Shown piece by piece: positions 10,479-31,026 of a stretch of DNA of 64,000 nt. The position numbers were made by a program, and so were the translations under genes. This stretch comes from Novosphingobium barchaimii LL02 (GTDB lineage: Bacteria; Pseudomonadota; Alphaproteobacteria; Sphingomonadales; Sphingomonadaceae), in contig NZ_KQ130457.1 of NCBI RefSeq assembly GCF_001046635.1, positions 5,641 to 69,640 on the forward strand, given 5' to 3'. Numbering within the stretch: position 1 is the stretch's first letter; every line of letters starts with the position of its first letter. The notes under the pieces are model-generated. The model was given only the letters and a program-made list of their open reading frames with translations, ran no database searches and was not told the DNA's origin.

Positions 10479-11402
10479 TTACGCCTGGGCATCTTCGATG
10501 CGCGCGCTTTGGCCCAGTTCGAGCCCCAGCCTTCTACCGCGCTCGAAGATGGTGAGGAACAGTTGCATGTTCCTGGCCTCGACATCCGTCCTGACCTCGA
10601 GTTGGGGGGCAGACTTTGCCCTGTCCCAGAAACGCTCGGTAACCGGCCCGTCCTTGCAGATATCCAGCGCCAGGCCGTGAAGTGCGCCATGCAGGTTGCT
10701 GGTCGAAGGGGCCGCATTGTCTGCACCTTGCTCCTGCATCATTGCAAGCCAGCCGATGTATTCGGACTGGAGGTCGGAGGCGGTTTCGAAGTGCAGCACG
10801 GCGGGCAAATCCTCGCGGCGATCCGAGAGGCGCTGCATCAGGCCGTCGAGAAGCCCGACGCCGAAGCCCGTCATGTCGAACTGCGATGGAGGGGCGCGGC
10901 CAATCAGGCCATCGTTCACCGCGCAGTTCATCGCAGTATGATCGGTAAAGCCAGAGTAGCCTGTCGGCGCGCCGGGGTAATATGGCAGGTCCCTGCGGGC
11001 ATGCACGTCCAGTTCGAGTAGGCCGGACTGCTTGGGCGCGGCTGGCGCTTCCGCACCGTGCCCGCCAGACGTACCGCGCTTCCGGCGCCGTCCACCGACC
11101 CAGGACGCGGCGGCAATGACCCAAAGGACGAGCGCGACGAGCGCCAGCGGAATTGTCAGGAAGAACAGCCAACCCATCATGAAGCCGGTGTAGAGTAGGT
11201 TGCTGATGTCTGTGCCCAAGACGATGCATTGCTGGGCTGATGCCTCATTGACCCGGCACCCCAGCGCTGCGGTGGTTGCCGCACTGGCAAGGGCCGCCAG
11301 GATCGGGCCAAAGCCGATGACCGTCAGTACTGATGCGGCTGTGACGAGTATGCGAACACGGCGTCGTAGCCTGTCTTCTGCCAAGAGGGGTTTTTCAAGC
11401 AT
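10479..11402 (-). CDS. Two-TM membrane protein of unknown function
   Basis: A 307-residue protein that I do not recognise. Two membrane segments, about residues 16-45 and 72-97, enclose a short loop with two cysteines (GCRVNEASAQQC). A basic linker (GGRRRKRG) precedes a 190-residue soluble domain, predicted cytoplasmic, with segments LPYYPGAPTGYSGFTDHT and FDMTGFGVGLLDGLMQRL. It points the same way as the three secreted-protein genes upstream but has its own 90-base leader carrying two weak copies of the regulon motif (11424-11460). It is the left edge of the secreted-protein locus. The start has a poor ribosome site, so expression may be low or conditional. Confidence 0.7.
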   Translation of the reverse strand: MLEKPLLAEDRLRRRVRILVTAASVLTVIGFGPILAALASAATTAALGCRVNEASAQQCIVLGTDISNLLYTGFMMGWLFFLTIPLALVALVLWVIAAASWVGGRRRKRGTSGGHGAEAPAAPKQSGLLELDVHARRDLPYYPGAPTGYSGFTDHTAMNCAVNDGLIGRAPPSQFDMTGFGVGLLDGLMQRLSDRREDLPAVLHFETASDLQSEYIGWLAMMQEQGADNAAPSTSNLHGALHGLALDICKDGPVTERFWDRAKSAPQLEVRTDVEARNMQLFLTIFERGRRLGLELGQSARIEDAQA

Positions 11403-11423: not shown

Positions 11424-11460
11424 TTAATCGCTGTCAAATTATTTATTGAACATTGGGTAT
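11424..11460 (-). promoter_or_regulatory. Putative TetR-regulon site pair D (weak)
   Basis: Two sequences related to the TetR palindrome TTGATCGACGATCAA lie 22 bases apart: TTAATCGCTGTCAAA (9/15) and TTGAACATTGGGTAT (7/15, sharing the ATTGAAC core seen at other sites). They sit 22-58 bases upstream of the membrane-protein start. The match was made by hand and is the weakest of the set. Confidence 0.35.
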
Positions 11461-11493
11461 TTAATAATGGGCCGGCGGCGCTCAACTGGACCT

Positions 11494-12594
11494 TCAGCCG
11501 CACCAGGCGCGCGTAATGCGGTTGCTTGCCGGATCCGTTTCGATCGTCACGCGGTTGGGCTGATGATCCTCGGTCACGGCTTCGCCCGGTTTGGTTTGAC
11601 GGATAACCTGGGCGCCCGTGGCGATCCGCGCCGCACCGTCAGAGATGGGCGTCGTGCCGACAAGATATTTGGTTGCATTGTCGCTGCAAAGAGTTTGCAG
11701 GGGATGAGCGATCGGCAGGAAATATTCGCTGCAGTCGGCGGGCACTGCAAGATAGCGGGCAGGGCGCTGCGTTTCGTACCGGCCGGTCAGCGCTTCGTAG
11801 CGGATTGGTCGCTGTATGCTGCAGATGGTGTCGGGCCTTTCGTCCATCTGAGCTGTATTCTGCGGCTCTTCTGGCAGGGTGTCGTCGTCCATCAGCATGG
11901 CCGGGCGCACCGCGGCCTTGCTTTCGAAAATCAGCGTTGGCCATCCCCCCTGCTGGTCGGTGTCGAGGCGCAGGAAGCCTTCATAAGTCCGCCGCCCATC
12001 ACATCGGCCGTTCAGCATCTGCTTCTGCTGCTCTGACCGGCAGAGGGGGATCACCCGTTTCGCGGCGATGGGCAGGCTGACCAGCGCATTCACCCGCGCC
12101 TGATCCGTGCCAGGGTTATCGACGCGAAACAGGTGCAGCCGGTCTTCGCTGGCAACGCCGGTGCCGTATTTCACGCTGGCCCGCACCACGACACCGATCA
12201 GATAGGCATGGTGGTTTTCGGGTGTCACCGCGTTGAAGGCAACGTACATGGGCCATGGATGGACGGTGGCGCTGGCCGGCAATGGCAAGGGGACCGGGAG
12301 GTCGCGGCTCTGATGGCCACCTTGCGTGAAGTGCAGCGCCACTTCGGCTTCTCCGTGCCGCACGGAATAGAGGATGTCAGTACCGGGAATGCCGAACACG
12401 CCTGAAGGCTGCTTGTCTGGCAGGTCTTCCCCTTCGGTCAGATAGGCAAGCAGATGTCCGGCAAGGTCTTTCTGCGCGAAGCTGTTCGGCCCCGCGCTGG
12501 CCGGACCGGACAAAGTCAGGGCCAGAGCAAAGGCGGCGCAGGACAGGGCGGATCGCAACGACAACTCTACGCCTCGGCAAAGACGGGAAATCAT
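11494..12594 (-). CDS. Secreted protein of unknown function
   Basis: A 366-residue protein with a clear Sec signal peptide: MISRLCRGVELSLRSALSC, then a hydrophobic core ending PASAGPNS. The start at 12594 was chosen because its ATG overlaps the stop of the upstream gene by one base (TAATG) and begins the signal peptide. The mature part has paired cysteines in CRSEQQKQMLNGRC, CSIQRPIRYE and DCSEYFLPIAHPLQTLC, suggesting periplasmic disulfides, and acidic stretches such as MDDDTLPEEP. I recognise no family. It is the third gene of the leftward operon that begins with the LprI-like gene and is probably co-expressed with it. Confidence 0.75.
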   Translation of the reverse strand: MISRLCRGVELSLRSALSCAAFALALTLSGPASAGPNSFAQKDLAGHLLAYLTEGEDLPDKQPSGVFGIPGTDILYSVRHGEAEVALHFTQGGHQSRDLPVPLPLPASATVHPWPMYVAFNAVTPENHHAYLIGVVVRASVKYGTGVASEDRLHLFRVDNPGTDQARVNALVSLPIAAKRVIPLCRSEQQKQMLNGRCDGRRTYEGFLRLDTDQQGGWPTLIFESKAAVRPAMLMDDDTLPEEPQNTAQMDERPDTICSIQRPIRYEALTGRYETQRPARYLAVPADCSEYFLPIAHPLQTLCSDNATKYLVGTTPISDGAARIATGAQVIRQTKPGEAVTEDHQPNRVTIETDPASNRITRAWCG

Positions 12595-12917
12595 TACGGC
12601 TCTCCATTGAGGCAGGATGACATCCGCGCCACGATAGGTTTCCATTTCGCGGCCTGAGCCTTGGGATAAGTAAGCCGGAAGCTGGCGAAGCGGATCGTGT
12701 CGACTGTCGCCCGCTGATAGAAGATCTGGTTGCCGATCGTGCCCGACACGGCCAGCCAGCTATCTTTCGCCACTTTATAGGTGACCTTCGCGCCATCGCT
12801 CTTCAGGTATTTCACTTGCTGGGCCAGCGCCTGCGCCGTCGCCGGTTGAACGAGGCCAGCGCCAAACGCCGACAGGAATGCGCCCTTGCCTGCCATGCGG
12901 GCGGTTGCTGAAATCAT
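12594..12917 (-). CDS. Small secreted protein of unknown function
   Basis: A 107-residue protein. The N-terminus (KGAFLSAFGAGLVQPATAQA) looks like a signal peptide cleaved after ATAQA. The mature part is about 80 residues, lysine-rich and beta-like (AKVTYKVAKDSWLAVSGTIG), and ends with a single cysteine (SSCLNGEP). AAAGGA lies 8 bases before the ATG. It is the middle gene of a three-gene operon, 39 bases after the LprI-like gene and overlapping the next gene by one base. Function unknown. Confidence 0.65.
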   Translation of the reverse strand: MISATARMAGKGAFLSAFGAGLVQPATAQALAQQVKYLKSDGAKVTYKVAKDSWLAVSGTIGNQIFYQRATVDTIRFASFRLTYPKAQAAKWKPIVARMSSCLNGEP

Positions 12918-12956
12918 GCTGAGGTCCTTTCAATTCAGGGGGTCGGGCTGCCTGTC

Positions 12957-13418
12957 CTACTGGTCCAGATAATCCTGCTGCAACGAGGCCAGCGCAGCGT
13001 TGCGCGCGAGATAATGGGTGATCAGGCAATCCTCCCCGGCGAGGCCTACGGCGGTCCCATAAAAGCCGGATACATTGTCGACCAGGTCACAATCAGCGCT
13101 CATGAAGGCTTCCCACGCCTTCTGCGAGGCGCTCAGCGCCCGCGCGGCCTTTGCATAATCGGTGCCATCCGGCCCCTTGATGCTCAACGTGGCTTCGATC
13201 TTCTTCAGCAGGACACCCTGCCGGGCGACAAGCGCTTCGCGATGCTCAACATAGCAGCGGGCGTCGGCCAGGGTGGTGCCGCCGCGCGCGTTGATGCACC
13301 ATGTCAGCCAGCCGGCATCATATGTTGCCGGTTGCTTGGATGGCGTTGCGGCAAGCGGGGCTGGAAGGATCGACGCGGCCAGCAGCATGGCCGCTGACGA
13401 TAGAGGGAGCGCGTTCAT
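12957..13418 (-). CDS. LprI/DUF1311-like secreted protein
   Basis: A 153-residue exported protein with a signal peptide (SSAAMLLAASILPAPLAA, cleaved near residue 24). The mature part shows the LprI-type N-terminal-domain pattern: Cys (WCINARGGTTLADARC), a helical hairpin with SQKAWEAFMSADCDL, and a later Cys. LprI of Mycobacterium inhibits lysozyme, and related domains are widespread in proteobacterial periplasmic proteins; inhibition here is not shown. It is the first gene of the leftward operon, transcribed from an intergenic region that carries two regulon-motif copies and is shared with the rightward operon starting at 13616. Confidence 0.75.
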   Translation of the reverse strand: MNALPLSSAAMLLAASILPAPLAATPSKQPATYDAGWLTWCINARGGTTLADARCYVEHREALVARQGVLLKKIEATLSIKGPDGTDYAKAARALSASQKAWEAFMSADCDLVDNVSGFYGTAVGLAGEDCLITHYLARNAALASLQQDYLDQ

Positions 13419-13504
13419 GTCGCGGGTCGCAGTGCTGGGAACGGTATCATCACGGTCATGATTGCAACCTTTCTAAATTGCTGTTCTGAAGGGGTAACGG
13501 GAAA

Positions 13505-13586
13505 ATATACAGCGCACAATTAAAAATTGATCATTGGTCACTATTTTTCACTGAGGGCTTGACGGCCGTTATTGAACGATGATCAT
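13505..13586. promoter_or_regulatory. Putative TetR-regulon sites C in divergent promoter
   Basis: TTGATCATTGGTCAC (13527-13541, 10/15 to the TetR core) and TTGAACGATGATCAT (13572-13586, 12/15) lie between two divergent secreted-protein operons. An AT-rich CAATTAAAAA precedes the first, as it does at site E. A possible third, weak copy starts at 13505, 22 bases before the first. One site could serve each direction. Confidence 0.5.
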
Positions 13587-13615
13587 AAAGCCGCCGAGGG
13601 ATGGAAGGAACATTG

Positions 13616-14095
13616 ATGATCGGGATCTTGTCGAGAACGGCCATCAGGCCGAAGATAGGCGGCGCGGCGCTGGCCTTGCTGTCGGCGACTGCGGCGCAGG
13701 GTAGCGGTCGTCTGCCACCCTTGCCGATCCCGTCGCAGAAGTTTGCGGACCTTGCCGCCTGTCGCGCCTATCTGGACCAGACCTATCGCGACGATCTTGC
13801 CAAGGCCGACCCGGAACCGGTTCCGATCGACGGCGGTACGCGGCAGACCCTGATCGAAAGCGAAGGGCCTGTCGGCACAGATACCGGCCATGTCGATTAT
13901 GCCATCACGGAAGGATGGCAGATCCGCCATCCCGAACCCGACAAGGGCTATGTCCAAATATCCTATTCCTATCGCACGACAACCATGGCCTGCGACGGCG
14001 GCGTCCTGACCGGCACCTATGCCCAGGGCTATAATTCGCCCAGCTATGAGCATTCCACCGCGCCCGGCAATGAACGGTCCGAAGTAAAGCCCTGA
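13616..14095 (+). CDS. Small secreted protein of unknown function
   Basis: A 159-residue protein with a signal peptide (residues 1-33; core GGAALALLSATAAQG). The ATG at 13616 was preferred to one five codons earlier because AAGGA lies at proper distance only from it. The mature part contains one early cysteine (LAACRAYLDQTYRDDL) and one in MACDGGVLTGTYAQGY, which could pair. It has a beta-rich stretch YVQISYSYRTTTMACDGG. No family is recognised. It opens the rightward operon of four to six secreted-protein genes, 30 bases after regulon site C2. Confidence 0.7.
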   Translation: MIGILSRTAIRPKIGGAALALLSATAAQGSGRLPPLPIPSQKFADLAACRAYLDQTYRDDLAKADPEPVPIDGGTRQTLIESEGPVGTDTGHVDYAITEGWQIRHPEPDKGYVQISYSYRTTTMACDGGVLTGTYAQGYNSPSYEHSTAPGNERSEVKP

Positions 14096-14110
14096 AGGGA
14101 AATTTCGATC

Positions 14111-14695
14111 ATGAACCACCAGCGTCCTGCCTGGCCCGTCCTCATCCTCGTCCTGGCGGCTTGCGCCTGCTCGTCCGACAAGAGGGATGTATCTGCCGAT
14201 CATTCCGATGCCCCTGCCGCTGAGGTTGCCAACGCTGACGCGATGCCGCAGCCCAAAGGCGAGGAAAGCCTCCCGACGTCTGACCCTGCGCCGGACCCTG
14301 CTAGCGCACCGGACGAAGTGTCGCCGGCGCCTGACCTTGCCCGCTATGTCGGCAAGAATCCCTTCGACAAGGTCGACGGCGTGGCGTTCCTGGACCACCC
14401 CACTGTGCAATCGACGGTGAAGGCTGCGGTAAATGATGCCGCCATCCGCAAGTGGGTGCTCGCCGCCGGTGCCAATCCATGGCAGCCGATCTGGCGACAT
14501 GGCGATGATCTGGTCACGGCCGGATGCCAGCAACACGGGTGTGAGCAGCGTTCATGGACGATCGTCATCACCCCTGCCACGAAAAGCGCGAAGGTCTGCT
14601 TCGAAAAGGATGGCGTAAGCCGCTGGTATTCGGCCGGACGTATTGAACCTTATGACAACTCGTGCCCATTCGATGAGGCCGACCTTGGTGATTGA
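14111..14695 (+). CDS. Lipoprotein, paralogue of the gene at 20777
   Basis: A 194-residue lipoprotein: the signal peptide ends in the lipobox LAAC with Cys18. A Pro/Ala/Asp-rich linker (residues 20-76) leads to a C-terminal domain of about 115 residues beginning YVGKNPFDKVDGVAFLDHP. The same domain occurs in the lipoprotein at 20777-21361 (YIGKYPFDVVDGHRFLDSP), so these are paralogues within one locus. A pair of cysteines (CQQHGC) and CFEKDG may form disulfides. GAAGGGA precedes the ATG. The 15-base gap after the previous gene indicates an operon. Function unknown; I infer periplasmic, membrane-anchored action. Confidence 0.8.
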   Translation: MNHQRPAWPVLILVLAACACSSDKRDVSADHSDAPAAEVANADAMPQPKGEESLPTSDPAPDPASAPDEVSPAPDLARYVGKNPFDKVDGVAFLDHPTVQSTVKAAVNDAAIRKWVLAAGANPWQPIWRHGDDLVTAGCQQHGCEQRSWTIVITPATKSAKVCFEKDGVSRWYSAGRIEPYDNSCPFDEADLGD

Positions 14696-15365
14696 CGCAC
14701 GATGCCTGTCGCCTGCCGCTGTGTTGTCAGGCTTGCTGCTGTTGTCGGCGGTGCCTGCGGCTGGTGCGCCGCGCGTCGAAATGCTTGCCGGGACCATGCA
14801 ATGCGATTTCATGGCATGGGCATCGTTTGGCGCGAAGGCGCCCGTCGCGGTTAGGGCCGAACCGGCGCCTGACGCAAAGCTGCTGGGCTATCTGCCGGTG
14901 TGGTCCCCGGCGCACGAGGAACGCCCCAATGTCGAATTCGATGTCGTCGCGGCCCGTGCCGGCTGGCTGAAGATTGATCCTGTTGCCGATCCTGTCGAAT
15001 TGGATGCTGATGGTAGGCCGCTTCCATTGCGGTCTGTCCCCCAGGGGGCAGGCTGGATTGCGGCGGAGGCAGCGCAGGTCGGTATCCAATCGGCAATCGG
15101 CTATGCCGGGCCGGATGCGGACAGCGCCGTCATCGTCGATCTGGGCGATGAATGGCTGACCGACATGGGAACGCTTGAAGCGATCCGGGGATGTGCAGGG
15201 CCGTGGCTGCTGATCGAATATAAGCTCGTTCGCAGCCGTAGCGCCACAGGCGCGCTTCTCGACCTGCCTGTAAAGACGCAGAAAAAGGGAGCGGCATGGT
15301 TCCGGGGAATATGCAGCAATCAGGTCACGGCATGCGACCAGCGATCGGTGGACCAGCGGAAATGA
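14673..15365 (+). CDS. Secreted SH3-like protein
   Basis: A protein of about 230 residues with a signal peptide (core LSPAAVLSGLLLLSAVPAAG). The mature N-terminal part, about residues 35-120, has an SH3-like pattern: VAVRAEPAPDAKLLGYLPVW followed later by AGWLKI and GWIAAEAAQVG. Bacterial SH3 domains often bind peptidoglycan; that is a family inference. Three cysteines (MQCDFMAW, GCAGPWLL, ICSNQVTAC) suit an oxidising compartment. The start is uncertain: the ATG at 14673 overlaps the lipoprotein gene by 23 bases, and an ATG at 14652 is the alternative. It is the third gene of the rightward operon. Confidence 0.7.
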   Translation: MRPTLVIDARCLSPAAVLSGLLLLSAVPAAGAPRVEMLAGTMQCDFMAWASFGAKAPVAVRAEPAPDAKLLGYLPVWSPAHEERPNVEFDVVAARAGWLKIDPVADPVELDADGRPLPLRSVPQGAGWIAAEAAQVGIQSAIGYAGPDADSAVIVDLGDEWLTDMGTLEAIRGCAGPWLLIEYKLVRSRSATGALLDLPVKTQKKGAAWFRGICSNQVTACDQRSVDQRK

Positions 15366-15997
15366 GGCGGTCTGGCGATGCCATCCGCACTGCGCTGGGA
15401 GGATGCGCGTTGCTGGTTGCGGCGGCGCAGCCTGCCGTGGTCCAGGCGGCTGGCCAGCCCGTCATCGTCACAACGCCTGCACAGACCGGTTCTGCCGGGA
15501 ACCAGCCGCCGCGCGACCCGAACCAGATAGAGGGCATCAGGATAGAGGATAACGATGCCCTCATCACCGGCCCCATCAACCAGCGGCGCGTCTATATCCC
15601 GCTGGACAAGCCGGTCATGCCCGCTGGTTTCAGGACTGCGTGGGTTGCCAAGCTGGACAGTTGCGCTGCGGCGCGGGTGGCGCTCAGCCACCCTGCGGCG
15701 ACACTGCCGGCCGACACGCTGCTGATTACCGATACGCAGATGATCGCGAGAAAAACCTGGAGCATTCTGCAGGTCTACGTCCCGCTGCCGGAGAGCTTCA
15801 CGATGGCCATGCTCGATTCAGGGCGGCCGCTGGTGCTGCCTGCGTCAAAATATCGCGGCGCGGGCAAAGTGCTGGTCATCTATGCCGAATCCGACGGCCA
15901 CCGCGGCTACATGGAACTGACCCAACTCGACAAGGGTGCAAAACTGGACATGTCTAACAATCGCTCCCGAGAAACCGGGCTGCGATGCGACAAGTGA
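15362..15997 (+). CDS. Secreted protein of unknown function
   Basis: A 211-residue protein whose ATG overlaps the previous stop as ATGA, implying coupling. Signal peptide: MRRSGDAIRTALGG, core CALLVAAAQPAVV, cleavage near QAAGQP. A polar, Pro/Thr-rich segment then leads into a domain with NDALITGPINQRRVYIPL and ILQVYVPLPESFTMAMLD. It has two mature cysteines (DSCAAARVA and the C-terminal LRCDK). I recognise no family. It belongs to the rightward operon and is followed by the broken secreted-protein gene. Confidence 0.7.
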   Translation: MRRSGDAIRTALGGCALLVAAAQPAVVQAAGQPVIVTTPAQTGSAGNQPPRDPNQIEGIRIEDNDALITGPINQRRVYIPLDKPVMPAGFRTAWVAKLDSCAAARVALSHPAATLPADTLLITDTQMIARKTWSILQVYVPLPESFTMAMLDSGRPLVLPASKYRGAGKVLVIYAESDGHRGYMELTQLDKGAKLDMSNNRSRETGLRCDK

Positions 15998-16009
15998 AGG
16001 GATGATCCC

Positions 16010-16330
16010 ATAAAACCGATTGTGCACGCCGCCATTTCTGCGTTGCTTGTGCTGGCGTCCGCACCGGCCCATGCCGCGCTGCCACCTTATTGGCAATGAG
16101 TCAGAGAGATCGAGGGCATCATCAACCACAGGGCCGTGGCGGATGCCCTGCGGGGCAATATGATTGACCGGATCGAGACTGTGGCAGTCGATCGCCTTCG
16201 GGTAAGTGCAGGCCCCTGCCATGCCGACGTGCACCTGAAGTCGCTTCCGCGAAAGAACCCCGTGCCACGCCTTTTCAAGGTAGTCCTGACTGACCAGGGC
16301 TGCACCGCTGCGGCAACGCCGGCGCCATGA
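16010..16330 (+). pseudogene. Small secreted protein, broken by in-frame TGA and missing ATG
   Basis: One frame reads KPIVHAAISALLVLASAPA plus HAALPPYWQ, a textbook signal peptide and mature start. TGA follows at 16097-16099, then 76 further codons (REIEGIINHRAVADALRG, VSAGPCHADVHLKSLPRK, VLTDQGCTAAATPAP). The first codon before KPIV is ATA rather than ATG, and no other start is in frame upstream. The two mature cysteines suggest a small disulfide-bonded periplasmic protein like its operon neighbours. Both lesions argue for recent loss rather than recoding. Confidence 0.65.
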
Positions 16331-16370
16331 AGAGCGCCGCCAGCCGCCTCGGAGCCCAAGAGATGAAGTC

Positions 16371-16664
16371 ATGCACGTGATCGCACTTTTTCTTGCCGCC
16401 GCCGATCTGACTGAGGCCGCCGTCTTTATCCGCCAGCAACGGGTCGCGTTGCTTCGAACGATCAAGGCGCAAAGTCCGCAAGGTGTACGGGGCGGCCGGG
16501 AAAACGGATTGACCGAGGTCTTGCTGGATTTTCGTGATGAGGGTCAGGCGAAGCTGCTCTGGATCACCCCAGTTATGGGATCGCGCAGCGCCGTGAGGGC
16601 GGTTCGAAAGAAGACGCGAGTGATCAGCCGGTGCAGGGGGCTATCGCTGGCAGGTCAGGAATAG
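16371..16664 (+). CDS. Possible small secreted protein at operon end
   Basis: A 97-codon frame with a short hydrophobic start (MHVIALFLAAADLTEA) and a basic C-terminal part (AVRKKTRVISRCRG). The middle, LTEVLLDFRDEGQAKLLWIT, looks folded. It could be the last gene of the rightward operon, but the adjoining genes are pseudogenes, the ribosome site is poor and its last bases overlap the end of a broken gene on the other strand. Treat it as tentative. Confidence 0.3.
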   Translation: MHVIALFLAAADLTEAAVFIRQQRVALLRTIKAQSPQGVRGGRENGLTEVLLDFRDEGQAKLLWITPVMGSRSAVRAVRKKTRVISRCRGLSLAGQE

Positions 16665-16887
16665 AGTGGAATGCGGGGCCGCCGGAATGTCGCCTTATCG
16701 GGTGAGAACCCGAGCTGATCGTCATTGTCAGGCGCACCGAACAGATATTCGCGTTGCCCGAGCGGGGGGAAATGCCACCATTCCCACAACCTTGTCGCGA
16801 GGCGGTCACCCCGGGTTGCGCGAGTAGGGCGAGCAGCATAGGGGCGACCAGCAAGAGGATCGCGGCAAAACGGAAACCGAGGTTCAA
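16655..16887 (-). pseudogene. Small secreted protein, frameshifted
   Basis: From a TTG start overlapping the upstream stop (TTGA), preceded by GGAGGAAC, the frame encodes a strong signal peptide (MNLGFRFAAILLLVAPML, LALLAQPG). After about 33 residues the coding pattern continues in another frame: LWEWWHFPPLGQREYLFG, then APDNDDQLGFSPDKATF, ending PRIPLYS at the TGA at 16655-16657. A one-base loss near the GGTTGTGG run explains the break. Intact, it would have been about 76 residues. It is the second gene of a leftward pair divergent from the TetR gene. Confidence 0.6.
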
Positions 16888-17247
16888 CCTGTTCCTCCTA
16901 ACATCGATTCATCGGCGATGCTGGTCAGCTGCCAGCGGGTGCCGACCGGGCGGAACAGATAGTGGATCTGATATCCTATGTCCTGCTTGGCCAGCATGAC
17001 TTCGACCACGCCGCCGACCTTGGGCGTATTGCATGGCCAGCCCGTCGCGGGGCGGCATGGCGCGTGGCGGCATGACCGGGAACGACAGCTTCGCTTTGGC
17101 GACCTTGGTGAAGGCCATGCGCGGTTTCGGTTCGGCGGCGGGATCTATTCGCCCCGATTCTTTTGCCGGGGCAGCAACGACTGGGCGCCATCGGTAGCGC
17201 GACCAATCCTGCCCACATGTCGGTCTCTCCATTCGAATGGTAGCCAT
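16884..17247 (-). pseudogene. Secreted-protein gene divergent from TetR, frameshifted
   Basis: The conserved-looking parts lie in two frames: AAEPKPRMAFTKVAKAKLSF with PVMPPRAMPPRDGLAMQY in one, then KVGGVVEVMLAKQDIGYQIH and YLFRPVGTRWQLTSIADESM in the next. The shift is near 17028, at AATACGCCCAAGG. A second possible shift separates a plausible signal peptide (MWAGLVALPMAP) from VVAAPAKESG. The stop overlaps the TTG of the next pseudogene, so the two formed an operon. It reads away from the perfect TetR palindrome, so it was probably controlled by the same site. Confidence 0.6.
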
Positions 17248-17285
17248 TTTCTGCCCAAACCATTGATTCTGGCCAAAGGCGCACC

Positions 17286-17327
17286 TTTTAATTGATCGAC
17301 GATCAATTAAAATTCGACGCTGTACAT
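17286..17327. promoter_or_regulatory. Perfect TetR-type operator (site A)
   Basis: A perfect inverted repeat spans 17286-17312: two 13-base arms around a single central A, core TTGATCGACGATCAA at 17292-17306. It lies 45 bases upstream of the TetR start and between that gene and a divergent broken gene. A weaker copy, TTCGACGCTGTACAT, starts 21 bases further on. Position and symmetry are typical of TetR autoregulation. Confidence 0.75.
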
Positions 17328-17356
17328 TTTGAGGCAGTGCGGTATGGTGAACGTCT

Positions 17357-17956
17357 ATGGGCCGCAGATCAGATCACAGCCGAAAAGAGCTGGAACACAT
17401 GCTCATCGTCGAGGGCCACAAGCATATGGCGGACGTCGGATTCGCGCGGTTTTCGGCAAGGGAAGTCGCCAAGCGGATCGGGTATTCGATCGGTACGCTG
17501 TACAATGTGTTCGGCACTTACGATCAGCTTATCATTGCCATCAACACGCGCACTTTCGTGCTATGGACGGATTACATCCGCGAGGCGCTGAGCAAGAGCG
17601 GAGACGACCGTATCCGTGCTCTGGTGGAGGGGTATTTCGGCTTCGCCCGTGGCAATCGCAATGCGTGGATGGCGATCTATGATCACCACCTGCCGCCCGA
17701 CGTGACAATGCCGCCCGAGCACGATCTGCTGCGCGGGCAGCTGACCGATGTCGTAGTGGAGGAAGTACGCGCCGTGCTCTCGCCCGAATGCCAGGTGGAG
17801 GCGCCGCGCTTGGCTCGCTCGCTGGTTGCCACGGTGCACGGCCATTGCATGTTTGACATCAATGGTTCGTTCGCGCTGATGGGTGAAAAGGAACCGATGG
17901 CCATGGCGCTCGCCCGCGTGCGCGAAAGCCTGACGGCGACACGCGGAAGCTGTTGA
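17357..17956 (+). CDS. TetR/AcrR family regulator, likely local master repressor
   Basis: A 199-residue cytoplasmic repressor. The N-terminal TetR HTH (about residues 9-56) reads FARFSAREVAKRIGYSIGTL and YNVFGTYDQLI. The rest is the helical ligand-binding/dimerisation domain with a TetR_C-like pattern (YFGFARGNRNAWMAIYDHH, ATVHGHCMFDINGSFAL). The GGTGA before the ATG is a modest ribosome site. The gene lies just downstream of a perfect palindrome and upstream of the KAS III operon. Related sequences occur in front of most secreted-protein operons from 11.4 to 24.2 kb. I infer that it represses itself and these operons, perhaps relieved by an acyl or lipid-like ligand; the ligand is not visible from sequence. 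Confidence 0.88.
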   Translation: MGRRSDHSRKELEHMLIVEGHKHMADVGFARFSAREVAKRIGYSIGTLYNVFGTYDQLIIAINTRTFVLWTDYIREALSKSGDDRIRALVEGYFGFARGNRNAWMAIYDHHLPPDVTMPPEHDLLRGQLTDVVVEEVRAVLSPECQVEAPRLARSLVATVHGHCMFDINGSFALMGEKEPMAMALARVRESLTATRGSC

Positions 17957-17977
17957 GAGGCTGAGTGGACGGCAGAA

Positions 17978-18014
17978 TTGATCGCCGTCCAGAATTATAT
18001 TGAACACCGATCAA
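17978..18014 (+). promoter_or_regulatory. Putative TetR-regulon site pair B
   Basis: TTGATCGCCGTCCAG (11/15 to the palindrome core) and TTGAACACCGATCAA (12/15) lie 22 bases apart in the gap between the TetR gene and the KAS III-like gene, 57 bases before the latter's start. They suggest that the biosynthetic operon has its own regulated promoter. Confidence 0.55.
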
Positions 18015-18070
18015 AATTTTGCCATCGTTGGGCTTCCGATGATTCGTCCAAGACTTCGGGAGCGTTTTCA

Positions 18071-19210
18071 ATGCGTGCCTATGTTACCGGATCGGGGCAG
18101 TTTCTTCCCGGAGAGCCGGTCTCCAACGCCGCGATGGTGGATTATATCGGCCGTCTTTCGCCGCAGGCGGAGCGGCTCGGCAGGCTGACGCTGCGCCGCA
18201 ACGGCATCCGCAGCCGGCACTATGCCATGCGTTCCGACGGCACCACCGACTGGACGCTGGCCAAGCTGGGCGCGGCGGCGCTCGACGACCTGTTCGGGCG
18301 TTCCGGGCTCGACCGGCGCGAGGTGGGATACCTCGCCACCGCGACCACGCAGAATGACCTGATGGTGCCGGGGCTCGCCAGCGGATTGCACGCCGCTTCC
18401 GGCCTGCCGCCGCTGGAAATCGCCAGTCTGCAAAGCGTTTGCGCCAGCGCCATGATGGCGCTCAAGTCCGCCGCGTTGCAGGTCTCCGCCGGAGAACACG
18501 CCGCCGCACTGGCGGTGGGGGCGGAGTTTTCCAGCCGTTATTTCCGCCCCGGGCATTATCACGGCACCGCCGCGATGAATACTGATGGCACCCTGCCGGG
18601 CGATGCCGAGTTCCTGCGCTGGACGCTGAGTGACGGCGCCGCCGGGGTGCTGGTGGAGGACAGTCCGGCCCCGCACGGGCTGTCGCTGCGGATCGACTGG
18701 ATCTCGCTGCGCTCTTTCGCCGACCGCTTCGCGCCGTGCATGACCGGCGGCGGGGTGGCGGACGGGCAGGGCGGGCTGATCCCGTGGAGCCATTTTCCCA
18801 CCATTGCCGAGGCCGCGCAGGCTGGTGCCTTTCAGTTGCGGCAGGATGTCGAGGCGCTGCACCGCATGCTGCCGGTTTGGCTGGGCGAGCTGATGCGGCT
18901 GGTCGACGAAGGCCGGGTCGATCCCACGGGAGTGGACCATTTCCTGTGCCACTTCTCCGCTCGCAGCCTGCGGGACGAGATGGTGGCGCAGGCTCGAAAG
19001 GCCGGGTGTCTGATCCCCGAGGAGCGCTGGTTCACCAACCTGTATGAAAAGGGCAATGTCGGCGCGGCCTCGCTGTTCCTGCTGCTCGACGATCTGCTGC
19101 GCTCCGGCCAGCTGACAGCGGGCCAGAAGGTGCTGTGCGCCGTGCCCGAGAGCGGCCAATGCGTTATGGCCTATGCGATGATGACCGTCGTGGACGGAGA
19201 AGAAGCATGA
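18071..19210 (+). CDS. Beta-ketoacyl-ACP synthase III-like condensing enzyme
   Basis: A thiolase-fold enzyme of 379 residues, longer than housekeeping FabH (about 320). The KAS III triad is visible: C124 in LQSVCASAMMALKSA, H294 in FLCHFSARSLRDEM and N329 in EKGNVGAAS. Such enzymes condense or transfer acyl groups from CoA or ACP. The extended C-terminal half places it with the specialised KAS III-like enzymes of secondary pathways rather than FabH; substrate unknown. GGGAG precedes the ATG by about 8 bases. Its stop overlaps the next gene as ATGA, and the third gene also overlaps, so the three are translated as a unit, probably under the TetR encoded just upstream. Confidence 0.88.
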   Translation: MRAYVTGSGQFLPGEPVSNAAMVDYIGRLSPQAERLGRLTLRRNGIRSRHYAMRSDGTTDWTLAKLGAAALDDLFGRSGLDRREVGYLATATTQNDLMVPGLASGLHAASGLPPLEIASLQSVCASAMMALKSAALQVSAGEHAAALAVGAEFSSRYFRPGHYHGTAAMNTDGTLPGDAEFLRWTLSDGAAGVLVEDSPAPHGLSLRIDWISLRSFADRFAPCMTGGGVADGQGGLIPWSHFPTIAEAAQAGAFQLRQDVEALHRMLPVWLGELMRLVDEGRVDPTGVDHFLCHFSARSLRDEMVAQARKAGCLIPEERWFTNLYEKGNVGAASLFLLLDDLLRSGQLTAGQKVLCAVPESGQCVMAYAMMTVVDGEEA

Positions 19211-19884
19211 CCGAGGTACTGAAAGCCACGCATCTTGAGTCTGCGCATCGCGGCCTTGCCCGCGTGTGGATCGAGTTCGAGAGCGGGCTCGCCCAGGTCC
19301 CGGTGATCGCGCGCCTGCTTTCGGGGCGGCTGCGGATCGAGGACTACCGCAGCCTGCTGTTCAACTTGCGTCAGCAGGTGGTGGATGGTGGCCGCTGGAT
19401 CAGCCGCGCGGCCTCCCATCTGGAGCACGAGGAACTGCGCTCGCTGTTCATCCGCCACGCCGCAGCCGAGCACCGCGACTATAGCATGCTTGAGGACAAC
19501 TATGTCGCCGCCGGGGGTAAGCGCGAGGCGATCCGGGGCGGGGTCAAGAACATCGGGTCCGAAGCGTTGTCGGCCTTCATGTTCCACGCAGCATCGCAGG
19601 CGAACCCGGTGGGAATGCTCGGCGCGATGTTCGTGATCGAGGGGCTGGGCAACCGCATGGCCGGCCCGTGGGCCGAAGCGATCCGCGCGCAACTGGCGCT
19701 GGGGGAGGATGCCGTCAGCTTCCTTGCCTATCACGGCGAGAACGACGAGGATCACCTGGCGATGTTCGACCGCGCGCTGGCGATGGTGGTCACCGATGCG
19801 GTCACCGCGACGTCCGTGGTGCGCCATGCCCGGATCGTGGCGCGGCTCTACCGCCTGCAACTGGAAGAGCTGGACAATGTCTGA
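19207..19884 (+). CDS. Haem-oxygenase-like putative diiron oxidase (HDO/TenA-like)
   Basis: A 225-residue all-helical protein of the TenA/iron-containing redox enzyme group. Candidate metal ligands fit the haem-oxygenase-like diiron oxidase pattern: RHAAAEHRDY (E88, H89), FVIEGLGNR (E145) and the spaced set HGENDEDH (H176, D180, H183). Members of this superfamily such as UndA and SznF use iron and O2 to cleave or hydroxylate fatty-acid-derived or amine substrates. I infer oxidative processing of the product of the neighbouring KAS III-like enzyme. It overlaps both flanking genes (4 and 8 bases). An alternative is a TenA-type hydrolase, which the His-rich motif and lack of thiamine genes make less likely. 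Confidence 0.78.
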   Translation: MTEVLKATHLESAHRGLARVWIEFESGLAQVPVIARLLSGRLRIEDYRSLLFNLRQQVVDGGRWISRAASHLEHEELRSLFIRHAAAEHRDYSMLEDNYVAAGGKREAIRGGVKNIGSEALSAFMFHAASQANPVGMLGAMFVIEGLGNRMAGPWAEAIRAQLALGEDAVSFLAYHGENDEDHLAMFDRALAMVVTDAVTATSVVRHARIVARLYRLQLEELDNV

Positions 19885-20761
19885 AACCCAAGGGTCCGGG
19901 ATTCCAGGTCTGGACGACTGGGATCGCAGCGATCCCGATCCGTGGCTGGCGCTGTGGATGGACCGTTCGCTGCCGATCGCGCCTGCCGCCAAGGCCGCGC
20001 TGATCCGCGACCAGCGTTCGCGCAGCCGCCAGTTCCTGCTGCCGATCGTGCGCCCCTTCGCGCGGTTGTGGATCGTCATCGCGCAACTGGTTCATACCGT
20101 GACGCCGCGCTGGCCACATGCGCCGCGCTTCCTGCATGCCAGCATTGCCTTCGGGATGAAGCACTTCCTCACTCCCGATGCCAACAGGCTGATCCTGAGG
20201 CATTTTCATCTGGGCGCGCAGGTCCTGCGCTTTATCTCGGACAATGCGACACCGGGCTTTCACCCGCCGCTGGAGCCGATGACCCCGCGCCGGATCGACG
20301 ACGTGCGAGCGAACCTGTTCCTCAATCACGACCTCAACATCTACAACTACCTGATCGGCCTGAATGCCGAACTGGACCGGCGCGACAAGGACATCGACAA
20401 GGTCGAGCGGATCGACTTTTCCGCTATCACCGAAGATGTCGAACTGGAGGAACTGCCGCGCGGTCGTTTCAACGTGATCGACCTGCAGACCGCCATCGAG
20501 TGCTATACCCCCGCCTATGCGATGTTCCTGACCGACCGCGACTTCTGGCGGGCCACCAATTCGCTGCAGCTGGACGAGACGATCGGCCTTTACGCCGCGC
20601 GCCTGACCGGAGAGGAAAAGCATCTCGCGATGATCGTCAACGGCCACCCGCTGGTGCCGCACTCCACCCTGCGCGCGGGATTTCGGCTTATGCTGCACGG
20701 CCTGTCCACCGAACTGCTGCACGGCTTCCTGGTGCACATGAAGCGGCGGCAATCGGCTTGA
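19877..20761 (+). CDS. Unknown protein, third gene of the KAS III operon
   Basis: A 294-residue, probably helical protein that I cannot assign with certainty; it may belong to an uncharacterised family that travels with KAS III/iron-oxidase pairs. A hydrophobic stretch (FARLWIVIAQLVHTVTP) could touch the membrane. Conserved-looking motifs include HFHLGAQVLRFISDN, FLNHDLNIYNYLIGLNAEL, LQTAIECYTPAYAMFLTDRD and a C-terminal HGLSTELLHGFLVHMKRR. The His/Asp/Glu-rich segments could bind metal. The start lies 8 bases inside the oxidase gene, so its product is probably needed in fixed ratio with the first two. It converges with the lipoprotein gene at 20777. Confidence 0.7.
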   Translation: MSETQGSGIPGLDDWDRSDPDPWLALWMDRSLPIAPAAKAALIRDQRSRSRQFLLPIVRPFARLWIVIAQLVHTVTPRWPHAPRFLHASIAFGMKHFLTPDANRLILRHFHLGAQVLRFISDNATPGFHPPLEPMTPRRIDDVRANLFLNHDLNIYNYLIGLNAELDRRDKDIDKVERIDFSAITEDVELEELPRGRFNVIDLQTAIECYTPAYAMFLTDRDFWRATNSLQLDETIGLYAARLTGEEKHLAMIVNGHPLVPHSTLRAGFRLMLHGLSTELLHGFLVHMKRRQSA

Positions 20762-20776
20762 TTGGATGAAATGCGT

Positions 20777-21361
20777 TTATCCCGCTGCGATATCCGCTGC
20801 TGGGTAGTCTTCGGCGTCCGAAGGGCATTTGCCCTGTTTCATGATGCTCGGCTGGCCGGGTTCGAACCATTGCGACGACTGGAAGTCGCCATCATAGCCA
20901 AGCCCATCATAGATGCAGACTTCCGGTTTTGATCCATCAGGGGCGAGGACGACCGACCAGTTGTAGTGGTCCTCGGCATGGTTGGCGCCGCCCCAGATGA
21001 GAATGCGGCCGCCTTTGACGGATACGATCGGCACGCCAAGGTAGCCTTTCTCGAACTTGACGACAGCGCGCTCCTTGGCGTCGGGCACAGCGGCGGCGAT
21101 AGCAGCCTTCACTGCAGGACTGTCGAGAAAGCGGTGTCCGTCAACCACGTCGAATGGATATTTGCCTATATAACCTGTCAGGTCGACGCGGTCGCTTCGG
21201 GTGGGCCGCGCGGTAGGAGCAGCAGTGCTGGGCGCCGCTTGCTTCTCGCTCGCTCCTGCGGCTACCTTTTTGCCGCCAACCTGTTCACCACGTGAATCCG
21301 CAGCCTGTCCGCAAGCTGCAAGCCCCACGAGTATCAGAGCCGTCAAAGCAACAACTTTCAT
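20777..21361 (-). CDS. Lipoprotein, paralogue of the gene at 14111
   Basis: A 194-residue lipoprotein with lipobox LAAC (Cys17), an Ala/Lys/Thr-rich linker, and a C-terminal domain starting YIGKYPFDVVDGHRFLDSP. This is the same domain, in a protein of the same length, as the lipoprotein of the rightward operon. Further shared features are the hydrophobic strand NWSVVLAPDG before EVCIYDG and a late cysteine (KQGKCPSD). It is the last gene of a three-gene leftward operon headed by the gene at 22580. Function unknown; the duplication within a co-regulated locus suggests partner or variant roles in the periplasm. Confidence 0.8.
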   Translation of the reverse strand: MKVVALTALILVGLAACGQAADSRGEQVGGKKVAAGASEKQAAPSTAAPTARPTRSDRVDLTGYIGKYPFDVVDGHRFLDSPAVKAAIAAAVPDAKERAVVKFEKGYLGVPIVSVKGGRILIWGGANHAEDHYNWSVVLAPDGSKPEVCIYDGLGYDGDFQSSQWFEPGQPSIMKQGKCPSDAEDYPAADIAAG

Positions 21362-21407
21362 CGTATTTCCTTCCTATCAACGTCTGCTTCCGCGACTCGC
21401 CTTGCTG

Positions 21408-22103
21408 CTATTTTCTGGCTGGCAAAGAAGTGGCGGCACCGGTGCGGAAATAGCTGCCTCCCAGCGAGCCATTAAGACCGCAGTTGGGGCTACTTTTTCC
21501 CTCTGCGTCCGACACATCGAGCGTTACCCCGGACCGCGTGAAATCAAGCTGCCCGGCGGGATCATCGGTTGCTTCCTTCCAATGCGATGCGCCGATGGCA
21601 CGCAGTTTCCCTTCCGCTTCGCAGACCCAGCGGCCCTGCGACGGTTCAGCCGCGTTCGCGTTGAAGGACAACTGCCCGTTGGCGCCACGGGACACCGTAA
21701 TTTCGCCAGCCAGATTGCGCCAGACGCCTTCGACGCCTGCAGGCGTGGACCAGCTGATCGCGTTGAGGAAGTGCAGCCGATCGAGCAGGATCTTGGCGCG
21801 ATCCTCTCCGTCGGCAAATCCGGCGTTGCGCGTGGCGATGAACCACTGCTGGTCCTGCTTCAGCTTTTCCGCCGATGCCTTGTCCAGCCCTTTACGCAGC
21901 GCTCCATAGCGCATGCCGATCTGGCCATCGAGCGATGACAGGGGTTTGCTGGCACAGATCGCCTTCTCGACGCCTGATGATGCCTTGCTGCAATCGAAAG
22001 ACGGACCATTCCGCTCCGGGTCGGCTGCGGATACTGGGACGCTGGTCAACGCAACGAGGCCGGCAGAGAAAACGGCGAAGGCGCCAAAATGAACGTGAGG
22101 CAT
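21408..22103 (-). CDS. LprI-like secreted protein with C-terminal beta domain
   Basis: A 231-residue exported protein (signal peptide to about residue 27, ending PVSAADP). Residues 30-110 form an LprI/DUF1311-like domain: FDCSKASSGVEKAICASKPL, then DGQIGMRYGALRKGLDKA, then LKQDQQWFIATRNAGF. A second domain follows, with GVWRNLAGEITVSRGANGQL, RWVCEAEGKLRAIG and CGLNGSLGGSYFR. The exported protein at 24219-24914 has the same length and layout (WSCEFSGVG, CGAGGTMAGPYF), so they are paralogues. By family resemblance it may bind or inhibit a cell-wall hydrolase; not demonstrated. It is the middle gene of a leftward operon. Confidence 0.78.
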   Translation of the reverse strand: MPHVHFGAFAVFSAGLVALTSVPVSAADPERNGPSFDCSKASSGVEKAICASKPLSSLDGQIGMRYGALRKGLDKASAEKLKQDQQWFIATRNAGFADGEDRAKILLDRLHFLNAISWSTPAGVEGVWRNLAGEITVSRGANGQLSFNANAAEPSQGRWVCEAEGKLRAIGASHWKEATDDPAGQLDFTRSGVTLDVSDAEGKSSPNCGLNGSLGGSYFRTGAATSLPARK

Positions 22104-22133
22104 GGTCAGGTAATCCCTTTTTCGCGAACAGGT

Positions 22134-22580
22134 CTATTGTCGATGCGTGTAGGGAGAGAGGCCGCCAAGGCTGGCATTGCTGTGCGCTATCAAAGCTTCG
22201 CACAGGCAGGTTTGATCCTTGCAGGCGTCCCGCCGGGCAATGAAAGCTGCATCGCGCGGCGTATTGTCCGGATCAAATTCGGTCTTCGTTGCATTTTCAT
22301 AGGCATAGGCAAATGCCAGGTCGTCCAGGCGTGACATCGTCCAAAGCTGGTCGTCATTCCCCCCGACTTCGCCGCACAGGATGCGCTGGGCCGGGATCGT
22401 CGGCGCGTCGCAGCTTATGTCCGACAATGTGTCGCCATACGATGTTTCGAGCCGAGAGATTTGGGCCGTCACCAAAGTCATGTTCACTGGACAGGTTTGG
22501 GCGAGCGCAGTGGATGAACAGGCCATCAGGCCCATGACCGACATGAATCGGACCATCCAGCGACCATCTAGAGACGACAT
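22134..22580 (-). CDS. Small secreted cysteine-rich protein, LprI-like
   Basis: A 148-residue protein with a signal peptide (FMSVMGLMACSSTALAQTC; an internal start at residue 9 is also possible). The mature part has six or more cysteines (QTCPVNM, DISCDAP, ILCGEVGG, DACKDQTCLC) and the helical segment DDLAFAYAYENATKTEFD, reminiscent of LprI/DUF1311 proteins. It heads a leftward operon with the 231-residue LprI-like gene and the lipoprotein. Its promoter region carries regulon site pair E and has been separated from the gene at 24219 by an IS1111-type insertion. Confidence 0.7.
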   Translation of the reverse strand: MSSLDGRWMVRFMSVMGLMACSSTALAQTCPVNMTLVTAQISRLETSYGDTLSDISCDAPTIPAQRILCGEVGGNDDQLWTMSRLDDLAFAYAYENATKTEFDPDNTPRDAAFIARRDACKDQTCLCEALIAHSNASLGGLSPYTHRQ

Positions 22581-22658
22581 AATCGGAGCACCTTCATATC
22601 GTAGTCACCCGGCTTTCAGCTTTGCTGGAAGTCCTCGCAATCCGATTTAGACAGAAAA

Positions 22659-22694
22659 TTCTACGACGATCAATTAAAAATGAACAATGCCGAT
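22659..22694 (-). promoter_or_regulatory. Putative TetR-regulon site pair E
   Basis: TTCTACGACGATCAA (12/15 to the core) is followed 21 bases on by ATGAACAATGCCGAT (7/15). The 15-mer GACGATCAATTAAAA at 22665-22679 is identical to the right half of the TetR palindrome at 17298-17312. The pair lies about 80 bases upstream of the 22580 start and directly against the IS1111 left end. Confidence 0.6.
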
Positions 22695-22703
22695 TTTTAT
22701 GGA

Positions 22704-22715
22704 ATGGCCCGCCCC
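22704..22715 (+). repeat. IS1111 subterminal inverted repeat, left
   Basis: ATGGCCCGCCCC, the exact reverse complement of the repeat at 24042-24053. Subterminal, not terminal, repeats distinguish IS1111-group from IS110-group elements. Confidence 0.75.
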
Positions 22716-22769
22716 AACTCTCCCGACATCGGTTACAATGCCGGTGCTTGAATAGAGGAGGAACGAGCC

Positions 22770-23798
22770 ATGACTATTGTGATGATCGGAATCGATTTAG
22801 GCAAGAACAGCTGCAGCCTTGCCGGACTGGATGAGAGCGGCGCGGTGGTTTTGCGGCGTCGGATGCAGCCGGCGACGATTGTAAGTTTTGCGGCAAAGCA
22901 ACCCCATTGTACGATCGCGATGGAGGCATGCTGCGGAGCGCACTATCTCGGCCGGCTGCTGTCGTCTCAGGGCCACACGGTCAAGCTGATGGCGCCGGAG
23001 TATGTGCGCCCCTACGTGAAAGCGCAGAAAAATGACGATCGAGACGCTGAAGCGATAGCGGAAGCGGCGACGCGTCCGACGATGCGCTTTGTCGACCTCA
23101 AGACGCAGGAGCAGCTTGATATTCAATCGCTGCACCGGGTGCGCTCCCGTCTCGTGGGCGCTCGCACAAGCCTGATCAACCAGCTCCGGGCTGTGCTGCT
23201 CGAACGGGGCATGACTGCGCCTCAAGGGCGACGCAAGTTCGAACAGGCTATTGAAGGGCTGCTCAACGATCCTGAGCGTTTGCCCGAAGGACGTGTGCGG
23301 CAGCTCGTGGTCGACATGCGCGAAGAATGGTTAGGTCTGGACGCCCGGATAGGCAATCTCGACACAGAGTTTGTTGCACTTGCTCGTGCCGACGAAACTG
23401 CGCGACGACTGACCTCGATCCCGGGGATTGGCGCGCTTAACGCGACGGCGCTACTGGCCGCGGCCGGAAACGCCGAAGGCTTCGACCACGCGAGAGATTT
23501 TGGCGCCTGGCTAGGTCTGGTGCCCAGGCAGCACACCACCGGTGGCAGACCCAGGTTGCTTGGTATCAGCAAGCGTGGGAACACGTATTTGCGGACGCTA
23601 TTGATCCACGGCGCGAGAGCCGCGCTGCCCACTCTGGAGAAAACCGACTCAGCATTGGGGCAATGGTTACGTGATCTGCTCGCAAGGCGACATCGCAACG
23701 CGGTCGTTGTGGCGCTGGCCAACAAAATGGCTCGGATCGTCTGGGCGCTGATCAGGCACAAGGCCGTGTTTTCTCTTAAACCGGCGATAGTCGCTTGA
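22770..23798 (+). CDS. IS110 family (IS1111 group) transposase
   Basis: A DEDD recombinase of 342 residues, normal length. The N-terminal RuvC-like domain has D9 in GIDLGKNS, AMEACCGAHYLGRLL and DDRDAEAIAEA. The C-terminal Transposase_20 domain has LTSIPGIGALNATALLAA, FDHARDFGAWLGLVPRQHTT and GISKRGNTYLRTLLIHGAR, including the usual serine-bearing segment. GAGGAGG lies just before the ATG. These enzymes use an RNA made from the element to pair with donor and target DNA. The protein appears intact. Confidence 0.93.
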   Translation: MTIVMIGIDLGKNSCSLAGLDESGAVVLRRRMQPATIVSFAAKQPHCTIAMEACCGAHYLGRLLSSQGHTVKLMAPEYVRPYVKAQKNDDRDAEAIAEAATRPTMRFVDLKTQEQLDIQSLHRVRSRLVGARTSLINQLRAVLLERGMTAPQGRRKFEQAIEGLLNDPERLPEGRVRQLVVDMREEWLGLDARIGNLDTEFVALARADETARRLTSIPGIGALNATALLAAAGNAEGFDHARDFGAWLGLVPRQHTTGGRPRLLGISKRGNTYLRTLLIHGARAALPTLEKTDSALGQWLRDLLARRHRNAVVVALANKMARIVWALIRHKAVFSLKPAIVA

Positions 23799-24041
23799 TG
23801 CAATCGATCACCGGCAGACGACCTGTTTGGTGATCCACGGAATGTCTGCGGGAGGAATTTTGAAGATGGCCTGACGGTTCACCGACGTCCCAACAGCCTG
23901 ACCAAAAAAATGGCACTTGATGCCGTGACTTTTATGAGGCCAGGGACGTGCGGCTCTCCATCTTGGCAACGGCCCAGCCGTTATGCCGTATACGTTGATG
24001 CAGACCAGTCAGTTGCCAGTCGAATAAAAACTCTTGCGGAC
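23799..24041 (+). ncRNA. Candidate IS1111 guide (bridge/seek) RNA region
   Basis: The 243-base non-coding stretch between the transposase stop and the right subterminal repeat has no plausible gene. In IS1111-group elements the targeting RNA is encoded in this right-end region. No fold was computed; the exact ends and guide loops are unknown. The call rests on family knowledge and position only. Confidence 0.4.
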
Positions 24042-24053
24042 GGGGCGGGCCAT
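24042..24053 (-). repeat. IS1111 subterminal inverted repeat, right
   Basis: GGGGCGGGCCAT, exact reverse complement of 22704-22715. Confidence 0.75.
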
Positions 24054-24106
24054 ACGTTTTTTGGGCGGCACTGTTCACCGTAGGGGTGCGGCAGGTGCGG
24101 CCATAA

Positions 24107-24143
24107 AAATACACTGATCAGAAAAATATTGAACGATGGTGAA
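24107..24143 (+). promoter_or_regulatory. Putative TetR-regulon site pair F
   Basis: TTGAACGATGGTGAA (24129-24143, 11/15 to the palindrome core) shares the 11-mer ATTGAACGATG with site C2. Twenty-two bases earlier lies AAATACACTGATCAG, which keeps only the right half GATCA (6/15). The pair is 76 bases upstream of the secreted-protein start. Confidence 0.45.
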
Positions 24144-30050: not shown

Positions 30051-30108
30051 GCAGGGGCACGAACCTGACACATTGCGCCCTACCTTTCGTCAAGGAGCAG
30101 AACACCCT

Positions 30109-31017: not shown

Positions 31018-31026
31018 CCGCCGGGT

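Follow-up and report, generated by a model that had tools for sequence, protein, structure and literature searches.

What, if anything, binds a run of small secreted-protein genes to a lipid-making operon and a TetR-family regulator in Novosphingobium barchaimii LL02? These genes lie together in a 64,000-nucleotide stretch of the genome of this soil bacterium (hereafter the window, meaning the whole stretch analysed), and an earlier reading of the letters alone (the original prediction) held that a single regulator controls the whole set through copies of one palindrome. The recurrence of this palindrome at the promoters of the locus is confirmed and proves stronger than first described, and it appears that one DNA-binding switch controls both the secreted-protein cluster and the lipid-making operon by way of a paired mark on the DNA. 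Sequence comparisons make the regulon itself, with one TetR, a paired operator and a local gene set, very probable; its purpose is the part most in doubt.

The perfect palindrome at 17292, in the promoter of the TetR gene at 17357, is present, and a search of the window recovered all of the related 15-mers that had been reported with it, at the same positions and with the same match counts. The operator is made up of two 15-bp palindromes (consensus TTGAACAnTGTTCAA) with a start-to-start distance of 21–23 bp, and each of the sites marked earlier is one half of such a pair, the sole exception being 13572. The 15-mer before the gene at 11402 was rightly noticed but wrongly called weak, as it belongs to a good pair. 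Each of the six pairs in the window is 21 to 86 bp away from the start codon of a gene of the locus (with the start of the beta-ketoacyl synthase III, or KAS III, gene taken as 18071). They are listed here together with the single site, scored with the first of the two matrices described below.

17292..17327 (15-mers 17292–17306 and 17313–17327): paired operator of the TetR promoter, 30.0 bits, 65 bp ahead of the TetR ATG, a position shared by most orthologs.
17978..18014 (17978–17992 and 18000–18014): paired operator of the KAS III operon, 35.2 bits.
13505..13541 (13505–13519 and 13527–13541): paired operator between the divergent secreted-protein operons, 22.8 bits.
22659..22694 (22659–22673 and 22680–22694): paired operator before the 22580/22103/21361 operon, 23.2 bits.
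11424..11460 (11424–11438 and 11446–11460): paired operator 21 bp upstream of the 11402 start codon, 22.4 bits (23.5 with the second matrix).
24107..24143 (24107–24121, a poor left half, and 24129–24143): paired operator before 24219, 17.6 bits (15.0 with the second matrix), the weakest of the six.
13572..13586: single strong operator upstream of the 13601 operon, 18.5 bits, with no good partner at 21–23 bp.

A plain count of near matches to the TetR palindrome (three mismatches or fewer) gave 26 in the window against 18.35 expected (standard deviation 3.95). This excess is only marginal, and the claim therefore needs evidence from outside the window. A symmetric 15-bp matrix was built from 36 sites in 19 TetR and KAS promoters outside the window and applied as a two-site model with a start-to-start distance of 21–23 bp. 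The model finds exactly six pairs in the 64 kb, all before genes of the locus and scoring 17.6–35.2 bits, with the next at 5.3; 300 simulated 64-kb second-order Markov sequences, with distances of 20–24 bp allowed, contained one pair of at least 17 bits, at 19.1. The second matrix (34 sites) was made without the sites of three Novosphingobium loci (L001, L002 and L016) and with five other TetR loci added. It retains two plasmid loci labelled Novosphingobium (L023 and L024), whose TetRs are only 54–56% identical to that of the window, and is thus free of near relatives, not of the genus name. This matrix returns the identical top six pairs, at 27.6 to 15.0 bits, with the next non-overlapping pair at 0.8, and the maximum in a 400-kb control (twenty 20-kb segments of the two nearest related genomes) was 11.0 bits. 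A third model (R1), trained on 28 pairs including the six of the window, was not applied in judging the window. Among sites of at least 8 bits, close spacings (8–60 bp) fall at 21–23 bp in five of eight cases in the window, five of six in N. profundi and five of five in PhB57. Weighing against the regulon are two single sites that equal some pair halves in score, one of 14.4 bits at 9730, close to the remnant of a transposase, and one of 12.5 bits at 14541, within the 14111 gene; therefore only the pairs discriminate.

The candidate regulator and its orthologs were considered next to their operators.

17357..17956, + strand: TetR-family regulator with TetR_N (PF00440, 3.1e-07) and TetR_C_33 (PF13305, 6.6e-10) domains.

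For each of the 30 TetR genes examined, the 1.4 kb upstream contains a site of at least 15 bits. A pair of at least 17 bits lies upstream in 26 (929 bp away in L019), and in 20 a pair lies 57–67 bp before the TetR ATG. Training of the first matrix drew on promoters of 15 of these loci, and a pair is found upstream of TetR in 12 of the 15 outside the training set. At L022, L047 and L070 the pair precedes a fatty-acid-hydroxylase-family gene that itself lies directly upstream of TetR. A match to the regulator at 1e-40 was found in 13 of 196 sampled Sphingomonadales genomes and, in the order of a Roseiarcaceae genome (G006), in one of 297, G006 itself; TetR is also present on Rhizobium and Shinella plasmids. 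Matches to the operator model anywhere in the genome, at E 0.05 or better, occur in 9 of 10 TetR genomes versus 4 of 20 genomes with no TetR match. Three of those four matches are partial and one, in G016, is nearly full-length (29.2 bits); this strong pair lies on a 13-kb contig (L076 2799–2887), in a genome with no TetR match at 1e-40.

Second TetR copies, 80% and 84% identical to that of the window, are encoded in N. profundi (L041 18216–18812) and PhB57 (L046 8123–8716), each with a single upstream site of 17–19 bits. The promoter of a distant TetR (33% identity) on a Rhizobium etli plasmid contains three palindromes built like those of the operator (L025 7908–7980), two of them 23 bp apart, and from this promoter the paired operator may be older than the TetR subfamily described here.

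The presence of the operator at KAS promoters follows that of the regulator. When genome contigs were scanned with the DUF6999 protein of the KAS operon, 15 loci emerged, and each of them has the KAS, haem-oxygenase-like and DUF6999 genes. In eight of these loci the DNA upstream of KAS contains two palindromes at a distance of 22 or 23 bp, and paired palindromes are absent from this position in the other seven. The operator precedes KAS in 8/8 loci from TetR-encoding genomes (in S. colocasiae the TetR is on a different contig from the KAS operon) versus 0/7 from genomes without TetR. For the seven operator-less genomes no TetR was seen at 1e-15 (two genomes) or 1e-8 (five); several of them look like close relatives, and the loci do not amount to 15 independent events. 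The KAS and haem-oxygenase-like genes stand apart in N. profundi, with an operator before each.

In two related genomes the operator is clustered in one locus. At E 1 or better, PhB57 has seven operator places genome-wide, six of them within 12.8 kb, and N. profundi has seven, two being half-matches, all within 17.1 kb, such that 13 of the 14 places in these 5.7–5.8 Mb genomes fall in this one locus. The unlinked place in PhB57 precedes a gene whose family adjoins TetR in Novosphingobium RL4 and is also found in the N. profundi locus, where its member has a sub-cut-off DUF4153 match. At the same threshold no operator place was found in six KAS-operon genomes without TetR. The claim of a regulon thus survived a weight-matrix scan for enrichment run on the genomes of relatives, with the operator confined to the locus in two of them.

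It might be argued that the repeat does not belong to this TetR and is instead a promoter element or is bound by another regulator. All ten KAS promoters examined have TTGARC in the promoter-proximal half, followed by 17 bp and then CAT, CAC or TAT. In these promoters ATTGAAC is similar to a -35 box, and its distance from a possible -10 is constant; the strong pair in the TetR-negative G016 also counts for such an element and against the regulon. The TTGARC pattern is not found at 13572 or 17292. The 15-bp dyad symmetry, the pairing at fixed spacing, the seven KAS promoters that lack the operator in TetR-less genomes and the concentration of 13 of 14 places in one locus all argue against this view, and we regard a promoter element as highly improbable. 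In the favoured explanation, TetR 17357 would be an autoregulated repressor that binds the paired operator, the palindrome centres being 21–23 bp (about two helical turns) apart; this spacing suggests two dimers on one face of the DNA. The promoter-proximal half of the operator probably overlaps the -35 box. Bound TetR would cover this probable box (TTGARC), and therefore repression rather than activation is the simplest reading, which we infer together with the binding itself.

The six pairs and one single site would govern tetR, the KAS III/haem-oxygenase-like/DUF6999 operon and five envelope transcription units (11402; 13418–11494; 13601–15997; 22580–20777; 24219). The lipid operon consists of three genes.

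18071..19210, + strand: StlD/DarB-like beta-ketoacyl synthase III; best solved relative StlD (5gk0, 5.4e-61).
19207..19884, + strand: iron-containing redox enzyme family protein, haem-oxygenase-like (PF14518, 2e-09).
19877..20761, + strand: DUF6999 protein (PF22523, 1.5e-112); helical model with no clear fold match.

The synthase is like the StlD/DarB ketosynthases in its sequence family and in the alignment with StlD of the Cys, His and Asn that we take to be the active-site residues. It differs from them in scoring under both NCBIfam StlD/DarB cut-offs (308.9 of 450 bits and 272.4 of 550 bits) and in its partners, the haem-oxygenase-like and DUF6999 proteins. The envelope and secreted proteins of the locus are as follows.

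10479..11402, - strand: membrane protein with a hydrophobic N-terminal segment, family not assigned (no Pfam match).
11494..12645, - strand: secreted protein with a C-terminal I78 peptidase-inhibitor domain (PF11720, 24.7 bits, cut-off 23.6).
12594..12917, - strand: small secreted protein; homolog in the PhB57 locus.
12957..13418, - strand: secreted protein with an LprI domain (PF07007, 32.8 bits, cut-off 22).
13601..14095, + strand: secreted protein; homologs in the Rhizobium, Shinella and PhB57 TetR loci.
14111..14695, + strand: Ivy-like lipoprotein (lipobox) with a CQQHGC loop, of the same family as 20777.
14643..15365, + strand: secreted protein, its true start uncertain though later than 14643; it has homologs in the loci of N. 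profundi, PhB57 and Rhizobium.
15296..15997, + strand: secreted protein with its start called at 15362; a homolog was seen in the Rhizobium locus alone.
20777..21361, - strand: lipoprotein (lipobox) with an Ivy-like predicted fold (Ivy entries are the top rows of the fold comparison), CxxHxC not kept.
21408..22103, - strand: secreted protein with an LprI domain (PF07007, 23.4 bits, cut-off 22).
22134..22580, - strand: secreted cysteine-rich protein with a signal-peptide-like start and seven Cys past residue 20; no Pfam match.
24219..24914, + strand: secreted paralog of the 21408 protein, in the same protein group.

Homologs of 10 of 12 envelope open reading frames are found in the N. profundi or PhB57 loci, in a different order. 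An N. profundi operon related to those flanking 13505 also has a pair upstream (L002 2922), and the N. profundi ortholog of 21408 is preceded by a single 20.4-bit site (L002). The Rhizobium plasmid pMK-2 has the TetR, the sites and envelope homologs, one of them beside a different KAS III. That homolog, of the 14643 protein, lies in a gene run (L026 3088–12257) that further encodes a CoF synthetase and a DUF3419 protein; the first gene of the run is preceded by a site at 3081.

A narrower regulon can be drawn, in which the reach of the TetR ends at tetR itself and the KAS III (and Aas) operon, and the envelope sites are remnants or weak sites with no regulatory effect. This would fit the six non-Novosphingobium KAS-operon genomes with the operator, five of which have it at one place and S. 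colocasiae at two, and the scores of the envelope pairs (17.6–23.2 bits), which are under the 30.0–35.2 bits of the TetR and KAS pairs; both points count against a regulon of the full breadth. The narrower version does not explain why the N. profundi and PhB57 loci, too, have pairs of 22–36 bits in their envelope parts, or why single sites precede the envelope homologs of Rhizobium pMK-2, and it is judged improbable. The broader regulon, in which one regulator and one operator serve a local envelope set plus the KAS III operon, was the core of the original prediction and is supported by phylogenetic footprinting, by the co-occurrence of TetR and operator and by locus confinement in two relatives.

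The function of such a regulon may be approached through the genes that the operator precedes elsewhere. In Sphingobium and others it lies before a protein with MFS, acyltransferase and AMP-binding parts (called a fused LplT-PlsC-Aas by its domains), before a DUF2339 protein, or before both, and relatives also have it before the fatty-acid-hydroxylase-family protein and other membrane proteins. The KAS operon runs on into Aas in three Sphingomonas loci (L006, L010 and L013) and in L015. Aas and/or DUF2339 were found near TetR in 17 of 28 loci scanned, 12 of these 17 having no KAS operon in the scanned stretch; neither DUF2339 nor Aas is present in the 64 kb of the window. According to one report, DUF2339 corresponds to Arc3A, which protects Pseudomonas aeruginosa from the phospholipase toxin Tle3, with a fused LplT-Aas acting alongside (PMC8926400), and another describes protection of E. 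coli from phospholipase by LplT-Aas (PMC11416262).

In the window itself, the 14111/20777 lipoproteins may resemble the lysozyme inhibitor Ivy in predicted fold, and the CxxHxC of the 14111 family parallels the CKPHDC of Ivy (PMC3660660). The motif occurs in 4 of 235 called proteins, all four of the Ivy-like family, and is absent from the other three of its seven members, 20777 included. The family differs from Ivy in that the Pfam Ivy model matches none of six members, in being lipoproteins with a long N-terminus of low confidence, and in having 20777-type paralogs without the cysteines of this motif. An LprI domain need not mean lysozyme inhibition (PMC7933661).

The operator precedes LplT-PlsC-Aas and DUF2339 in relatives and Ivy-like, LprI and I78 proteins in the window, and therefore the set is read as an envelope-protection regulon, a role that we put forward tentatively, with doubt slightly the stronger. 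It would be a local regulon that guards wall, lipid and protein against hydrolytic attack, joined by an operon for a lipid product. Release of the repressor would be by an acyl ligand (a lysophospholipid, a fatty acid or the KAS product); such a ligand is proposed because acyl-handling enzymes keep company with the regulator. Taken as a whole, the best explanation is probably that the TetR represses its own gene, an arsenal for envelope protection and a lipid operon until an acyl ligand releases it. A more specific and more speculative version, possible at best, is a one-component innate-defence regulon in which the TetR would sense the acyl products that arise when the membrane is attacked (a lysophospholipid or a fatty acid) and, through the paired operator, switch on LplT-Aas and DUF2339 for membrane repair, the Ivy-like, LprI and I78 proteins for wall and protease protection, and the StlD-type lipid operon, on an island that is expanding locally in sphingomonads and some Rhizobiaceae plasmids.

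The same genes can be viewed chiefly as a secondary-metabolite or signalling system, with the TetR sensing a lipid signal made by the StlD-like synthase and the envelope proteins handling or exporting it. The StlD/DarB-type synthase shares its operator with the envelope operons, and Rhizobium has an envelope homolog with a different KAS III operon. The 12 of 17 Aas and/or DUF2339 loci with no KAS operon in the scanned stretch are hard to place in such a scheme, and some of the envelope proteins resemble inhibitors, not transporters; signalling is consequently the less favoured purpose, and we consider it unlikely.

EdcR of Caenibius tardaugens, a repressor, belongs to the TetR family. Like the putative repressor described here, it comes from a sphingomonad and has a palindrome in its own promoter and in those of its targets; its palindrome differs (TnnCnnTACnAnTnGTAnnGnnA), its targets are for estrogen degradation, and the accessible part of its description mentions no paired operator (PMC8700777). 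The Arc3 system of P. aeruginosa would be alike in its coordinate control of envelope-protection genes, given DUF2339 and LplT-Aas behind the operator in relatives, and is under Gac/Rsm control, whereas a TetR and a DNA operator are found here (PMC8926400). The window also differs in having inhibitor-like proteins and a KAS III operon in place of DUF2339 and Aas. The view that no system of this composition has been described agrees with the listings of the literature searched, where none was found, most subscription papers being outside its scope. The paired architecture, the Ivy-like predicted fold and the link to LplT-Aas and DUF2339 are new beyond the original prediction, as is the broad conservation of the system among sphingomonads.

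The surroundings of the locus suggest a megaplasmid setting. Window positions 27910–41504 match a 1.76-Mb N. resinovorum plasmid at 81% (NZ_CP017076 502707–517944). The locus has only two short near matches to plasmids (198 and 76 bp, within 23864–24061; Roseomonas and Methylocystis plasmids), just beyond a transposase gene.

22770–23798: IS110-family transposase, inserted in the locus between the 22659 and 24107 operators.

The locus may thus be a variable island on a Novosphingobium megaplasmid. At 16658–17160 (- strand) are the decayed remains of two genes, both of which N. profundi and PhB57 retain in intact form upstream of TetR, and 16010–16360 may, by eye only, be a further secreted-protein gene in decay.

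For most of the small proteins that environmental bacteria secrete, no role has been assigned. Through a common operator, a dozen such proteins are linked here to a single regulator and, in relatives, to proteins already known for membrane repair, and therefore their joint function is directly testable. If the proposal is true, a single TetR can run a damage-responsive defence against lytic enzymes, and the operator model can be used to find further members of the regulon.

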